From Thermodesulfobacteriota bacterium (GTDB lineage: Bacteria > Desulfobacterota > Deferrisomatia > Deferrisomatales > JACRMM01): a stretch of DNA of 46,546 nt. Of this stretch, positions 37,764-45,715 are shown one piece after another (the first letter of the stretch is position 1; the number at the start of each line of letters is the position of its first letter). The notes beneath the pieces were generated by a model. That model was not told the DNA's origin and ran no database searches. It saw only the letters and a list, made by a program, of their open reading frames with translations. The stretch is taken from assembly GCA_040756475.1 (NCBI GenBank), contig JBFLZB010000005.1, positions 1 through 46,546 on the forward strand, given 5' to 3'. The translations under genes were made by a program, and so were the position numbers.

Positions 37764-38930
37764 ATGGCGATTCCCGTTGCGTACCCGCCCGCGAGGGCCG
37801 AGCTCCTGCGCACGTTTCGGCTGGTGGACTTTGCGGCGCGCCGGCAGCCGGGGTTTCGCAATCGGCTGGTGCCCGTGGAAGAGGTGGCGGGGCTGGTCCG
37901 GCGCTACGGGGCCCATGGGTGCTACGCCACCTTCTACCTGTACGACGAGGCCATTCGGGTCCACGCGCAGGGGGCTGGCGCGCCGGGCAAGCCTTCCGTG
38001 GCGGGGTACGACGGACCGGTGTACGCGCCGGTGTGGCCGCTGGACATCGACGCCCCCGACCTGGGGGAGGCCCTGGCGGCCGCGCGGGCCGTGGTGGAGC
38101 GCCTGGGCCGCGTCTGGGGGGTGCCCCGGGAAGCGGTGCGCCGCTACTTCAGCGGGAAGAAGGGGTTCCACGTGACCGTGGACACGCGGGTCTTCCTTGC
38201 CCCGGTTCCCTCGCGGCTCGCGCCGGAGCTCCTGCATCGGCTCACCCGGCGCCTCGCCCGGGAGCTCGGTTTCCCGCCGTCGGGGCCGCTGGATCTCTCC
38301 CTGCGGGACCGGGTGCGGCTCTTGCGCCTGCCCAACACCCGCCACGAGGAGAGCGGCCTCTTCAAGGTTCCCCTCTCGGCGGAAGAGCTGGGCTCCCTGG
38401 GGCCCGAGGCCATCCGGGAGGCGGCCCGCGCCCCGCGCCCCCTGGCGGGAGTGGACCCCTCCGGACTGCTCCTCGAAGCCTGCCTCGACCTCGTGCCCCG
38501 GGCGCGGGCCATCCTGGAAGAGGTTGCCGCCCCGTCGGGGGACGCCGTCCCCCGGGGGCGGCCCCCGAGTTCGGCAACGGCGGCCGGGGGTACCCGGGAG
38601 GTCCTGGAGTGCCCCGCGCGGCAAGCCCTCCTGTCGGCCCCGGCCCCGCCGGGGCAACGCAACAACACGGCCATCCGGCTGGCCTCGTGGCTGCGGGAAG
38701 CGGGGTGGGACGAGGAGGCCGTGGGGGAGCGCCTCGGGGCCTGGAACGGGAACAACCCCACCCCCCTGGCCGACGAAGAGGTGCGCCACGTGGTACGCTC
38801 GGCCTTCGCGAGCCCGGAGCCCTACCGCTACGGCTGCCGGGACCCCCTGATCGCGCCCCTGTGCCCGCCGTCGCCCGCGCAGAGGGCGCGCTGTCCCTAT
38901 CATCCACGAAACGCCGGAGCGCAAGGGTGA
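37764..38930 (+). CDS. Archaeo-eukaryotic-type primase (AEP) domain protein with PriCT-like tail
   Basis: A 388-residue protein. The AEP-type catalytic acids are in WPLDIDAPD (D94, D96), the nucleotide-binding motif is SGKKGFHVTVD (130-140), and LRLPNTRHE (about 190-200) fits the third motif. The C-terminal helical part (NNTAIRLASWLREAGWDEEA ... EVRHVVRSAFA) resembles a primase C-terminal (PriCT) domain. It ends with a Cys cluster GCRDPLIAPLC...RCPYH, a possible zinc or Fe-S site. No helicase, phage or CRISPR gene is adjacent. GGAGG lies just before the ATG; the frame is open upstream. Overlaps mqnB by 4 bases. Confidence 0.8.
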   Translation: MAIPVAYPPARAELLRTFRLVDFAARRQPGFRNRLVPVEEVAGLVRRYGAHGCYATFYLYDEAIRVHAQGAGAPGKPSVAGYDGPVYAPVWPLDIDAPDLGEALAAARAVVERLGRVWGVPREAVRRYFSGKKGFHVTVDTRVFLAPVPSRLAPELLHRLTRRLARELGFPPSGPLDLSLRDRVRLLRLPNTRHEESGLFKVPLSAEELGSLGPEAIREAARAPRPLAGVDPSGLLLEACLDLVPRARAILEEVAAPSGDAVPRGRPPSSATAAGGTREVLECPARQALLSAPAPPGQRNNTAIRLASWLREAGWDEEAVGERLGAWNGNNPTPLADEEVRHVVRSAFASPEPYRYGCRDPLIAPLCPPSPAQRARCPYHPRNAGAQG

Positions 38931-40670: not shown

Positions 40671-41051
40671 CTACGCCACCAGGGTTCGGATTTCTTCGAG
40701 GATTTCCCTGGGGTAGAAGGGTTTGGGGATGAACTTCCGGGCGCCCAGGTCGAGCACCTGGCGCACGATCTCGTGGCCGGTGGTCGCAGAGGTGACGAGG
40801 GTGGGCGGGGCTGCCTGGCCGTATAGGCGGCGCAGGGCGCCGAGAAAACCCAGACACTCGGGGGTGCGGGCGAAGTGCATGTCGAGAAGGATGCACCGCA
40901 CTTCCCGGCCGGCCAGATGGCCCAGCCCGGCCTCGGGGGTTCGGCAGCAGATCAGGTCCAGATCCTCGTCGGCGAAGGCGTATTCCAGGAGCTTGAGGAT
41001 GTCGGGGTCCTCGTCGATCAGGAGCACGGTGGGGCGGGAGGCCGGTTGCAT
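40671..41051 (-). CDS. Single-domain response regulator
   Basis: A 126-residue receiver domain without an output domain. The acidic pocket is in VLLIDEDPDIL, the phospho-acceptor Asp is in CILLDMHFA, Thr/Ser in LVTSATTG and the conserved Lys in FIPKPF. GGAGGG lies 6 bases before the ATG at 41051; the frame is open to 41120. Such proteins signal by protein contact. Its place, divergent from a PilB-like gene and near PilT, suggests a link to pilus control. No histidine kinase is nearby. Confidence 0.9.
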   Translation of the reverse strand: MQPASRPTVLLIDEDPDILKLLEYAFADEDLDLICCRTPEAGLGHLAGREVRCILLDMHFARTPECLGFLGALRRLYGQAAPPTLVTSATTGHEIVRQVLDLGARKFIPKPFYPREILEEIRTLVA

Positions 41052-41082
41052 GTGACACCCTCCATGGAATCCGGGGACGACA

Positions 41083-41153: not shown

Positions 41154-42803
41154 ATGAGCGGCGGAAGACTCCTGGGCTCCCTCCTGGTGGAGCGAGGGCT
41201 GCTATCCCCCGAGGCGCTGGGCGCGGCCCTGGCGCGGCAGGCCGGCTCCGGACGCAGGCTGGGCGAGGTCCTGGTGGAGATGGGTCTGCTCGGGGAGGAA
41301 GCCCTGCGGTGGGCCCTGGCGGAGCAGATGGACATCGCCCTGGTACACCCCGACCCGGCGGCCCTCGATCCGGAGGCCCTGGCCCTGCTCCCGGCACCCG
41401 TGTGCCGGCGCTATGGCGTGCTCCCCCTCTACCTCTCCGAGGAGCAGCCGGGGGGCCCGAAACTCCTCACCCTGGCGGCGGCCGACCCGGCCAACCGTCT
41501 CGCCCTGGACGACGTGGCGGCCCGCACGGGGCGAGGCCTACGGGTGGTGGCCGCGCTGCGGGAGGAGGTCGAAGCGGCTCTGGACGCGATCCACGGCCCG
41601 GCGCCCCGGGAGGACGTGGGCCTGCGCTCGTCGGCGCTTCCGGCCGAGAGCCTGCCGGAGATCCTGGAGGACCCCACGGGGAACGCTCTCCTGCGCGGCC
41701 TCCTGGAACCGGTCGCGGCCCGGGGGGAGGGGGGGTTCCACCTGAGGGCCCGGGCCGGGGAGACCCGGGTGGAGGATCTGGTGGGGCGACCCCTCTTTGT
41801 CGGCGGGGACGCGTGGCACGGCATCCTCCTCGACCGCCTGCGCCGGCTCGCGGGGCTGGACCCCGCGCCCGCCCGAGGGCTCCTGGAGCGCGGACGGGTG
41901 TCCTTCGCTCCCGGGGCCGGACCGCCATCCCTCTTTCGGCTCTCGATCCTCTCCGGGCTGGAGGGGGCCGAGGCCCAGGTGAAGCTCTTGCGGCCCGAGA
42001 GCCGGCGGCGATCCCTGGTCGAGCTGGGGTTCACCGAAGCGCAGGTGGGGGCCGTGCGGGAGGCGATCGGGAGGCCCGGTCTCCTGTGGGTGACCTCGGC
42101 GGGGGAGGAGGGGCTCGCGAGCACGCTGTTTGCGCTCCTGCGGGAGATTCCGGGCACGGGGAGGACCGTGACCCTGGAAGAGGAGGTGGGCTACCTCTCT
42201 GCCGAGTTCCTCCAGCTCGACGCCGCACACCTGGGGGCAGACGGCACGGCCGAGGTGCTGCGGGAGCTCAAGCACCTGGACTTCGACCGCGTGGTGGTGG
42301 ACCGGGCGGTCCCGTCGCTGCTGCCCCCCCTCCTGTCCCTGGCCCTGCGCAAGCGGTGGGTGCTGGCGGCAACCCCGGGGGTCGTCCCGGGCGGGGGTCT
42401 GCGCGAGCTCGCGGCGCGGGCGCCCGACGCCCCGCTTTCCGCCCTTCGGCTCCTGGTGCACCAGCGTCTCGTCCCGCGCCTGTGTCCCCGGTGCCGGGTG
42501 GCCTGCCGGCCCGACCGCGGCGAGTGGGAGCGGTTGGTCGGGGAGAGGCCCCTTCCGGAGCAGGTCTGGGAGGAGGGGAGCGGCTGCGAGGGGTGCGGTG
42601 GGAGGGGGACGACGGGGAGTCGCGCCTTCTTCGAGGTCCTGCCCGTGGGGGCCGCGGAGCGGGAAGCCCTGTGCGCCCAAGGGGGGGGCGAAGACGCCGC
42701 CGAACGCCTGTGGGAGGGCGCGCAGGCCGCCCTGCGGACCCAGCTTGCCGCGGCTGCGGCGGAAGGCGCGGTCGCCTTCTCAGAGCTCTGGGACGGTGCC
42801 TGA
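41154..42803 (+). CDS. PilB/GspE-like protein with degenerate ATPase motifs
   Basis: A 549-residue protein with the domain order of a type IV pilus or type II secretion extension ATPase. An MshEN-type N-terminus comes first (RLLGSLLVERGLLSPEAL, then RRLGEVLVEMGLLGEEAL, about 5-55), a pattern that binds cyclic di-GMP in MshE. A GspE N-domain (about 58-150) and the ATPase region follow. Walker A should read GPTGSGKTTT but is VTSAGEEGLASTLF (about 313-326); Walker B is LDFDRVVVDRAV with no GEIRD, and the His box is absent. The zinc element is kept: CPRC (C444, C447) and CEGC. It cannot hydrolyse ATP in the usual way. Its last 24 bases overlap the convergent gene. Confidence 0.82.
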   Translation: MSGGRLLGSLLVERGLLSPEALGAALARQAGSGRRLGEVLVEMGLLGEEALRWALAEQMDIALVHPDPAALDPEALALLPAPVCRRYGVLPLYLSEEQPGGPKLLTLAAADPANRLALDDVAARTGRGLRVVAALREEVEAALDAIHGPAPREDVGLRSSALPAESLPEILEDPTGNALLRGLLEPVAARGEGGFHLRARAGETRVEDLVGRPLFVGGDAWHGILLDRLRRLAGLDPAPARGLLERGRVSFAPGAGPPSLFRLSILSGLEGAEAQVKLLRPESRRRSLVELGFTEAQVGAVREAIGRPGLLWVTSAGEEGLASTLFALLREIPGTGRTVTLEEEVGYLSAEFLQLDAAHLGADGTAEVLRELKHLDFDRVVVDRAVPSLLPPLLSLALRKRWVLAATPGVVPGGGLRELAARAPDAPLSALRLLVHQRLVPRLCPRCRVACRPDRGEWERLVGERPLPEQVWEEGSGCEGCGGRGTTGSRAFFEVLPVGAAEREALCAQGGGEDAAERLWEGAQAALRTQLAAAAAEGAVAFSELWDGA

Positions 42804-44657
42804 TCCTCTGCGGTGGCGCTCGTCCAGGCGCCGAAAGCCCTCCATGAGGAGCCCCTCGGTGTTGCCCTGGATCGTCTGGGCGCGGGCTCGGGCGTCGGGC
42901 TCGATCCGGAACGCCCCGTCGGCCCAGCCCATGATGGCATAGAGGGCGTCTTCCCCCTCCAGGGGCCCGGTGCGTGCGTCCACGATGGCGCCGTCGCGCA
43001 GCGCCACCTCGGCGGCGCCCTCCGGGCCCTCCAGGCGCAGCACTGCGGTCTTGAGCCCGTTGGCCAGGATCTGGACGATGTCGGCGAATCCCATGTCGCG
43101 CAGGTTGCCGCTCACCACGCCCCGGTCCGGCCGCCCCCGACCCGCAGCCCGCTCCAGCTTGGCCGCCACCACCTCGGGGTGGGTGTCGGCGGTGAACACG
43201 TCTTCCGCGCCCAGGCGCAGGGCGTACATGGTGTCGGGTCCCGAGTCGGTGGGAGAGAGGAGGAACACGGGGGGCCGCCCCTCGGGCGACGCTCTTCCCA
43301 GGGCCTCCAGGAGGGAGAGTCCCGGACCCACCGCCGCCAGCACCGCATCCCATCGCCCCTCTGGGGGGGGTGCCTCGGCGCGCTCCACCTTCCAACCCCC
43401 CTGGCCGAGGCGGCTGAGCAGGGCCTCGGGGAAGGCCGCCTCGGGAAACAGGGCGAGCACCGAGAACGATCCCGCCTGTTCCAGCAGGTGGGCGCCGTCG
43501 GCCCACCGCAGAAGTCCGGTCACGGCGTCGGGGTCCAGGCATGGGTCGGCCCGCACCGCGTCGGCCGCCCCGGCGGGCGTGGCACCGGTGCCGAGCGCCC
43601 CTTCGTAACACGCCACCGCCCGGAGCACCTCTTCCCCCGAAAGGGGGCGGCTTCGGGAGGGGAGCGACCAGCCGGCGAGCGCCGCGCGCCAGGCGGCGAG
43701 CTCCAGGCGGTCCAGGGCCCCCGCCCCCAGTCCCCGGCGGCCGGCCAGGAACCGCACCAGGGCCGCCGCCTGGCGGGCCCGGGGGAATCCGTCCCCGAGC
43801 GCCAATCGAGAGGCCTCCTCGGCCAGGGCCTGGGCCTCGGCCGCGAGCCCCGCAGCGGCTGCGTGCTCCTCCAGGGCCGCCGCAGGATCGTCGAAGCTGC
43901 GCACGCGGGGGTGGGTTACGTGGGGGGCCCACTCCTCCTGCACCCAGGCCGCCGCCCACTCGCCGGACCGGAGCAGATCCCGGGCCTCCGCGGCGGAGCC
44001 GGCCCTGCGCACGTCGTACCCCGCCGCCTCGAAGAGCGCCGCCATGGCGCGCCGCCGGCGGGGCTCCGGGTCGGCCACCAGCACCCTTGCCTTGCCGCCG
44101 TGCCGGCCCGGGTCGCTCCCGCGCTCCCGGGGTGGGCCGGGCGGCCCCTGCTCGTCCTTGGAAGAGAGGGCGGCGATCTCCGGAGCAAAGGCAGGCTCCT
44201 CCAAGACCCCTTCGTAGTGGCGGGCGATGAGGCGGGCGATGGCCGCCTCCGGAGCAGCCAGCACGTTGACCTTGCGGGCCCCCGAGGCAAACCGCGCCTC
44301 GTCCACGGCCGACACGTTGTCGGGGTCGGCGGCGGCGAGATCCAGAACGCCTCGCTCCGGGTCCCAGCCGATCGGGAGCACGCGCAGGCGGCGGGCGAGC
44401 TCCAGGGGGACACGGGCCAGTGCCCGGGGCTCCACCGGCATGCGGGACGGCAGAAAAGGGGGTACCCGGTGCAGGAGCCCCAGGGCCTGGGCCAGAGTGT
44501 CTTCCGTGACGAGCCCGAGGCTCAGGAGCTGGGTGCCCAGGCGGCCCGGCTGGACCCTCTGCCGGTCCAGTGCCCGGTCCAGGGCCGTCGCGTCCACCGC
44601 CCCCGAGCGCAGCAGGATCTCGCTCAGGCGCTCCCGGGGTCTGCGCAAGGGTTTCAC
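42780..44657 (-). CDS. MshEN and DUF4388 domain protein with receiver-like middle
   Basis: A 625-residue protein. The N-terminus is MshEN-like (RLSEILLRSGAVDATALDRA, RLGTQLLSLGLVTEDTLAQA) followed by a GspE N-type segment. A receiver-like fold (ARVLVADPEPRRRRAMAALF, about 187-206) has no visible phospho-Asp. A second one around VFLLSPTDSGPDTMYALRLG is also degenerate. The C-terminus (about 525-610) is a DUF4388 domain: GNLRDMGFADIVQILANGLK, EVALRDGAIVDARTG. DUF4388 proteins occur with motility and two-component systems in delta-type bacteria. GTG start overlapping the pilT stop, so probably cotranscribed with pilT. Confidence 0.78.
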   Translation of the reverse strand: MKPLRRPRERLSEILLRSGAVDATALDRALDRQRVQPGRLGTQLLSLGLVTEDTLAQALGLLHRVPPFLPSRMPVEPRALARVPLELARRLRVLPIGWDPERGVLDLAAADPDNVSAVDEARFASGARKVNVLAAPEAAIARLIARHYEGVLEEPAFAPEIAALSSKDEQGPPGPPRERGSDPGRHGGKARVLVADPEPRRRRAMAALFEAAGYDVRRAGSAAEARDLLRSGEWAAAWVQEEWAPHVTHPRVRSFDDPAAALEEHAAAAGLAAEAQALAEEASRLALGDGFPRARQAAALVRFLAGRRGLGAGALDRLELAAWRAALAGWSLPSRSRPLSGEEVLRAVACYEGALGTGATPAGAADAVRADPCLDPDAVTGLLRWADGAHLLEQAGSFSVLALFPEAAFPEALLSRLGQGGWKVERAEAPPPEGRWDAVLAAVGPGLSLLEALGRASPEGRPPVFLLSPTDSGPDTMYALRLGAEDVFTADTHPEVVAAKLERAAGRGRPDRGVVSGNLRDMGFADIVQILANGLKTAVLRLEGPEGAAEVALRDGAIVDARTGPLEGEDALYAIMGWADGAFRIEPDARARAQTIQGNTEGLLMEGFRRLDERHRRGSGTVPEL

Positions 44658-45715
44658 GCGGGTTTGCACAGCCGCTCGAAGACCTGCTTGTTGTGGGCGT
44701 ACCGCAGGGCCTCCTCCGGGGCCACCGCCTGGGTGTTTACCAGCTCCAGGAGGTGCTGATCCAGGAGTTGCATCCCCTCCTTGCGCCCGGTCTGGATGAG
44801 GGACGGGATCTGGAAGGTCTTGGCCTCGCGGATGAGGTGGGAGACCGCGGTGTTGTTCAGCAGGATCTCGATCCCGGCCACCCGCCCGCGACCGTCGGCC
44901 CGCCGCAGGAGCACCTGGGCGATGACGCCGCGCAGGCTCTCGGCGAGCATGGCCCGGGCCTGGGGTTGCTGGTCCGCGGGAAAGGCGTCCACGATCCGGT
45001 CCACCGTCTTGGCGGCGCTCTGGGTGTGGAGGGTCGCGAGCACCAGGAGGCCGGTTTCCGCGGCCGTGAGCGCCAGGCCGATGGTGGCCAGGTCGCGCAT
45101 CTCGCCCACCAGGAGCACGTCCGGGTCCTCCCGCAGGGCCGCCTTGAGCCCGCTGGAGAAGGACTGGGCGTGGCGGCCCATCTCCCGCTGGTGGATCAGG
45201 CACTTCACGTCCTCGTGGAGGAACTCCAGGGGGTCCTCCAGGGTGATGACGTGGTCCGCGCGCTGGAGGTTGCGGGCGTGGAGCATGGCCGCCAGCGTCG
45301 TGGTCTTGCCGCTGCCCGTGGGCCCGGTGACCACCACGAGCCCTCTCTTGTCCAGGGCGAGCCTTCCCACCACGGCCGGGAGGCCCAGGGAGTCCAAGGA
45401 CGGCGGGGAGGCGGGGATCCATCGAAAGGTGGCCCCCAGGCCCTTGCGGTGGCGGTAGGCGTTGCCCCGGAACCGCGCCAGACCCTCCACCCCGTAACCG
45501 AAGTCGAGATCCCGGTGGGATTCGAGGCGCTCCAGGTCCTCCTCCGGCAGGATTTCCAGAATCAGGTCCTCGGCTTCATCGGCGGAGAGGTCCGGGTGCC
45601 GGGCGCGCTGGAGGGTGCCGTTGACCCGGAACATCGGCGGGGCCCCGGCGCTCACGTGGAGGTCGGAACCGCCCAGTTCCACCAGCGCTTGAAGGAGGGT
45701 GTCGATGCGGGCCAT
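44654..45715 (-). CDS. pilT: Type IV pilus retraction ATPase PilT
   Basis: A 353-residue hexameric ATPase that retracts pili. N-terminal PAS-like domain (LVELGGSDLHVSAGAPP; VNGTLQR). Walker A GPTGSGKTT (131-139), Asp box LEDPLEFLHE, Walker B LREDPDVLLVGEMRD, His box TGLLVLATLHTQSAAKT. The retraction-type AIRNLIRE position is replaced by HLIREAKTFQIPS, as in PilT/PilU proteins. Length and motifs are normal, in contrast with the PilB-like protein nearby. 121 bases with no obvious element separate it from the next gene. Confidence 0.96.
   Translation of the reverse strand: MARIDTLLQALVELGGSDLHVSAGAPPMFRVNGTLQRARHPDLSADEAEDLILEILPEEDLERLESHRDLDFGYGVEGLARFRGNAYRHRKGLGATFRWIPASPPSLDSLGLPAVVGRLALDKRGLVVVTGPTGSGKTTTLAAMLHARNLQRADHVITLEDPLEFLHEDVKCLIHQREMGRHAQSFSSGLKAALREDPDVLLVGEMRDLATIGLALTAAETGLLVLATLHTQSAAKTVDRIVDAFPADQQPQARAMLAESLRGVIAQVLLRRADGRGRVAGIEILLNNTAVSHLIREAKTFQIPSLIQTGRKEGMQLLDQHLLELVNTQAVAPEEALRYAHNKQVFERLCKPA

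Follow-up and report, generated by a model that had tools for sequence, protein, structure and literature searches.

A PilB-like pseudo-ATPase with a predicted cyclic di-GMP module is conserved beside a PilT3-type retraction motor gene

The described pilus motors closest to the protein reported here are MshE, the extension ATPase of the MSHA pilus of Vibrio cholerae, and PilF of Thermus. Both are active extension motors with Walker A and Walker B motifs, and both join an MshEN/GSPII N-domain, carrying tandem 24-residue motifs, to a GspE/PilB core with a tetracysteine. Direct control of extension by cyclic di-GMP (c-di-GMP) via MshE is known, and work on the MSHA pilus has left a separate input to retraction open (PMC7096442). 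PilU, a PilT-like retraction ATPase with its ATPase motifs kept, is an accessory that relies on PilT (PMC6762196). FimX, CpiA and other regulators of pilus motors act on PilB; FimX, whose GGDEF domain is degenerate, binds c-di-GMP.

In Geobacter sulfurreducens, the gene upstream of the retraction motor gene pilT3 (GSU0436) is GSU0435, which has been named mshE. Two other Geobacter species share this arrangement, and in G. sulfurreducens co-transcription of the pair was not clearly seen by RT-PCR (PMC5065972). Mutants in pilT3 attach late to electrodes, which was tentatively put down to exopolysaccharide (EPS), and are delayed in the reduction of Fe(III) oxide. PilT3 complements a pilT mutant of Pseudomonas aeruginosa, and work cited in the same study found both PilT3 and MshE at high abundance on Fe(III) oxide (PMC5065972). 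GSU0435 has been published as an MshE homologue or an ATPase (PMC5065972, PMC8557921), being listed as a "PilB/PulE/GspE family ATPase" with 26% identity to PilB (PMC8557921); a loss of ATPase motifs is mentioned in neither paper.

We analysed a stretch of 46,546 nucleotides from a Thermodesulfobacteriota bacterium (contig JBFLZB010000005.1), the whole of which is called the window. One of its genes (Table 1) codes for a protein with the N-domain, tandem motifs, GspE/PilB core and tetracysteine of MshE and PilF but, unlike these motors, with a lost ATP site. Compared with PilU, it would share the role of an accessory relying on PilT, whereas it is PilB/MshE-like, apparently dead and equipped with a putative c-di-GMP module. 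With FimX, CpiA and similar proteins it would share the control of a pilus motor, their folds being unrelated to its own.

The coordinates of the open reading frame are exact, and its GC content at the three codon positions (0.83/0.54/0.90) fits a coding frame in a GC-rich genome. Matches to MshEN (PF05157, 3e-14) and T2SSE (PF00437, 1e-14) both exceed the Pfam cut-offs; the latter scores 54.1 bits against a gathering score of 24.9, which establishes homology to the PilB/GspE superfamily. Scores for the equivalog models stay below their cut-offs, both for PilB (TIGR02538, 71.5 vs 675.65) and for GspE (TIGR02533, 62.1 vs 630.25). A sequence-only reading of the window had proposed that the MshEN N-terminus, the GspE N-domain and the CxxC-CxxC element remain in this protein, and the Pfam matches together with the alignment of all four cysteines bear this out.

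Table 1. Coordinates of the pseudo-ATPase gene, its motifs and its neighbours in the window
Feature	Position	Strand	Description
Pseudo-ATPase gene	41154..42803	+	549 aa; MshEN - GspE/PilB N2 domain - dead ATPase core - tetracysteine
Tandem 24-residue c-di-GMP motifs	41169..41327	+	Residues 6-29 and 35-58; 5-residue spacer; full match to extended consensus
Former Walker A, SAGEEGLA	42096..42119	+	Approximately residues 315-322; from alignment with 20 intact PilB/GspE proteins; lost in four orthologues too
Former Walker B, VVVDRAV	42291..42311	+	Approximately residues 380-386; invariant Arg384 at the position of the catalytic Glu
Tetracysteine (zinc) element, CPRC ... CEGC	42483..42596	+	Residues 444-481; C444/C447 and C478/C481; invariant in all orthologues
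MshEN + degenerate REC-like region + DUF4388 (PATAN) protein	42780..44657	-	Convergent neighbour; beside the pseudo-ATPase in 5/5 genomes
pilT, Walker motifs intact	44654..45715	-	Orthologous to the PilT paired with Geobacter-type pseudo-ATPases
Single-domain response regulator, canonical REC	40671..41060	-	PF00072, 4e-12; divergent from the pseudo-ATPase gene; kept in 5/5 genomes

Alignment with the 20 intact proteins shows how each motif has changed. The Walker A sequence GPTGSGKT has been replaced, and the pattern GxxxxGK[ST] is absent from all five orthologues, the window protein included. At Walker B, IIMVGEIRD has become RVVVDRAVP, with Arg in place of the catalytic Glu and with D383 and R384 invariant among orthologues, and the His box LSTLHTND reads LAATPGVV. 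The Asp box is partly kept in the window clade, as EDPVE corresponds to E-E/D-E-V, in which none of the five orthologues varies at E342 or E344; its acidic stretch is gone in the one Geobacter-branch sequence aligned (L026). The earlier claim that all ATPase motifs were lost thus holds for Walker A, for Walker B with the catalytic Glu and for the His box, and goes too far for the Asp box, which survives in part in the window clade. As far as residues can tell, the loss of the ATP site strongly supports the view that the protein is a pseudo-ATPase.

Orthologues with the same losses were found in four genomes from other genera of the same order. They are 55-57% identical, and their frames are open over 549-554 codons. 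For the closest pair, dN/dS is 0.072 over the whole gene and 0.012 over the dead core, which is the most constrained part; these figures are rough, as they come from the Nei-Gojobori method applied to one pair with GC3 of about 0.9. The pseudo-ATPase reading therefore gains from the repetition of the motif losses and from purifying selection. No frameshift restoring the motifs was found in the window gene or its orthologues, and no orthologue with intact Walker motifs was found among 395 genomes of the phylum searched with a window-clade profile or at the equivalent locus of 62 Geobacter-type genomes.

The order TlpA - pilT - MshEN/REC/PATAN - pseudo-ATPase - REC - mqnD is kept in 5/5 genomes from four genera. 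In a sixth genome the same pilT is present and the contig stops short of the pseudo-ATPase position; all that a seventh offers is a pilT fragment at a contig end, with one in-frame stop. Five genomes of another family of the same order contain neither this PilT nor the pseudo-ATPase. In the window, the 3' end of the MshEN-REC-PATAN gene shares 24 bp with the pseudo-ATPase gene, and at its other end it probably starts at a GTG that overlaps the stop of pilT. The REC-like region of its product is without the usual phospho-acceptor. In the same genome, PilB has its gene next to a canonical pilT on a different contig.

Other genes of this genome were noted in passing. Upstream in the window (37776-38930, +), between tyrS and menaquinone genes of the futalosine route, a stand-alone protein with a PriCT-1 primase C-terminal domain is encoded, whose N-terminal part matched no Pfam family. 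On contig C33 (L004, 1501-3165) there is another PilB/GspE paralogue, in which Walker A is kept as GPPESGKT, GEIRD has become GEITS and the His box is lost; it is perhaps a motor heading to inactivity.

When compared with the extended consensus of PMC11731258, the motif (R/K/L)LGxx..Q is complete twice in the window protein; the match includes Leu at the first position, which was linked to high affinity in that work. The NCBIfam model NF053729 is matched with a score of 58.1 against a cut-off of 38, and the cut-off is likewise passed by all three branches of pseudo-ATPases described below and by the neighbouring MshEN-REC-PATAN protein. Motif I of the Geobacter branch is weaker, with Ser at the first position and usually no Gly at the tenth. 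MshEN is among the best-kept parts of the pseudo-ATPases. An AlphaFold model built from a three-row alignment had a mean pLDDT of 53, and only its MshEN part is usable: this part matches the complex of MshE with c-di-GMP (5htl) with Z 11.8, and the core matches EpsE and PilB weakly (Z 6-7). From these data we infer that the MshEN domain of the window protein binds c-di-GMP. The sensing of c-di-GMP suggested in the sequence-only reading is well supported for the window clade by motif, as predicted binding only.

A search of the phylum revealed two more degenerate PilB-like branches besides that of the window. Of the 124 genomes of two families, 101 contain the Geobacter-type branch (43/48 and 58/76), whose proteins are approximately 25-29% identical to that of the window. 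Among 62 copies read from 62 genomes, Walker A is kept in 0/62 and the four zinc cysteines in 62/62. Where the P-loop once was, this branch carries conserved charged residues (R in 57/62, E in 55/62, R in 61/62 and R in 59/62), as if the site had been put to another purpose instead of wearing away, and close pairs show dN/dS of 0.045-0.27. One copy, in a one-contig genome (G490:C1:3663805-3665437), is disrupted, being split into two matches and a gap. The third branch (L054-L058) was found in five genomes of one family, four copies being without internal stop and one having a stop at a contig end; no adjacent pilT or pilus genes were seen in the one locus examined (L044). Viral contigs were also searched for PilB relatives, and none was obtained.

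In the tree, the three degenerate branches lie on one side and every active PilB/GspE tested lies on the other (100/100), and dropping the catalytic columns gives the same split (100/99). Sister to the window branch is the five-genome branch, with support of 99/97 for the whole protein and 82/72 without the core. A single loss of ATPase activity is only suggested by this topology, because the branches are long, their compositions differ and the program cautions that long branches may have been joined. The window gene thus appears to be one branch of a larger, apparently undescribed group of pseudo-ATPases. Our search of the open-access literature turned up no account of a pseudo-ATPase in the PilB/GspE family. 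Pseudoenzymes are familiar, as are pilus motors under c-di-GMP control; a PilB-like partner of PilT that is dead yet conserved would be a novel variation on these.

A pilT gene is adjacent and on the same strand in 61/61 checkable Geobacter-branch loci, the 62nd being cut by a contig end. The window PilT falls into a single clade with the Geobacter-branch partners (96/82), to the exclusion of the canonical PilT, whose gene accompanies that of PilB; identities within this clade are 54-58% vs approximately 46% to canonical PilT. The published pilT3 primers fit the pilT genes beside pseudo-ATPases with 0-1 mismatches in several genomes. By position and primer match, GSU0435-pilT3 is the Geobacter-branch equivalent of the window pair, and GSU0435 itself probably is without Walker motifs, judging from relatives in the same families and not from its own sequence. 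Seven genomes keep pilT3 and miss the pseudo-ATPase, with a plain gap in its place and, in five of them, dnaB directly upstream; three more with PilT and no pseudo-ATPase match have contig ends nearby and were excluded from this count. The pseudo-ATPase is therefore not obligatory for PilT3. A Geobacter-branch pseudo-ATPase without its partner PilT was not found, and PilT3 without pseudo-ATPase but never the reverse is the pattern expected of an accessory of PilT3.

The genome evidence points to a PilT3-type retraction motor, more specifically than the possible capping of "the pilus motor" suggested in the sequence-only reading; this motor, the wider family and the Geobacter equivalent all go beyond that reading. 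Because relatives have stayed beside one pilT across distant families, we favour a conserved non-catalytic paralogue of PilB/MshE working with a dedicated PilT3-type retraction motor, to which we give an even chance. The sequences would fit the following course. Binding of c-di-GMP to the MshEN domain would alter the conformation of a PilB-shaped body incapable of ATP hydrolysis. This body may dock on the PilT ring or take the site of PilB on the PilC/PilM platform; either way it would set when PilT3 may engage and retract. In the lineage of the window, the MshEN-REC-PATAN neighbour and the CheY-like regulator may provide further input. We hold sensing, docking and gating of PilT3-type retraction to be inferred steps. 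Counting against this explanation are the lack of clear mshE-pilT3 co-transcription in G. sulfurreducens (PMC5065972), the third-branch locus without an adjacent pilT, the weaker motif I in the Geobacter branch and the seven genomes that keep PilT3 alone. A broader version, in which ATPase activity was lost once before the lineages split and the whole family consists of ancient pseudo-motors, dedicated c-di-GMP-gated regulators of PilT3 and perhaps its ring partners, is put forward tentatively, with rather less confidence.

Alternative explanations have to be weighed against this regulation of PilT3. That the gene is simply decaying, or is a product of sequencing or assembly error, could be argued from the absent motifs, from the split copy in one Geobacter-family genome and from the several genomes which have lost the gene. 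The same losses recur in many genomes with intact frames, dN/dS is far below 1 and gene order is conserved; for the window clade, the shared losses, open frames and purifying selection refute decay, and we consider its probability practically nil. The pseudo-ATPase could also be an idle plug, competing with PilB for the PilC/PilM platform and so holding extension off, with PilT3 merely carried along. The PilB domain plan is kept, including the GSPII N-domain and the tetracysteine, and in motors of this kind the N1 domain is believed to touch the stator (PMC11656802). The linkage that persists across families is to pilT3 and not to pilB, the latter standing elsewhere in the window genome, and we find a mere plug unlikely.

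The output may be signalling instead of pilus movement, if the protein mimics nucleotide-free PilB and controls EPS or attachment. An ATPase-dead Walker A mutant of Myxococcus xanthus PilB does signal EPS production dominantly (PMC5544727), and EPS is what was tentatively invoked for the pilT3 mutants (PMC5065972); this leaves the conserved pilT neighbour unexplained, and none of the genes in the block shared by the five genomes was recognised as an EPS gene, so that we judge it quite improbable. An inactive subunit might also be mixed into the hexamer of PilT3 (or PilB) and fix its symmetry or direction, c-di-GMP being uninvolved. The core fold, the same by sequence, and the strict pairing with one PilT would fit such a hexamer, yet the good conservation of MshEN would be unexplained, and the probability of this arrangement appears slight.

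An MshE-like protein that is dead yet conserved and linked to a single PilT clade makes a concrete candidate for a c-di-GMP input to retraction. Its equivalent is present in G. sulfurreducens, where the delayed attachment of pilT3 mutants on electrodes and iron oxides is unexplained (PMC5065972). In the interpretation of pilB deletions, proteins of the GSU0435 type are probably not to be counted as spare extension ATPases, unlike in PMC8557921. If the reading of these proteins as ancient pseudo-motors is true, retraction as well as extension would be under direct second-messenger control.
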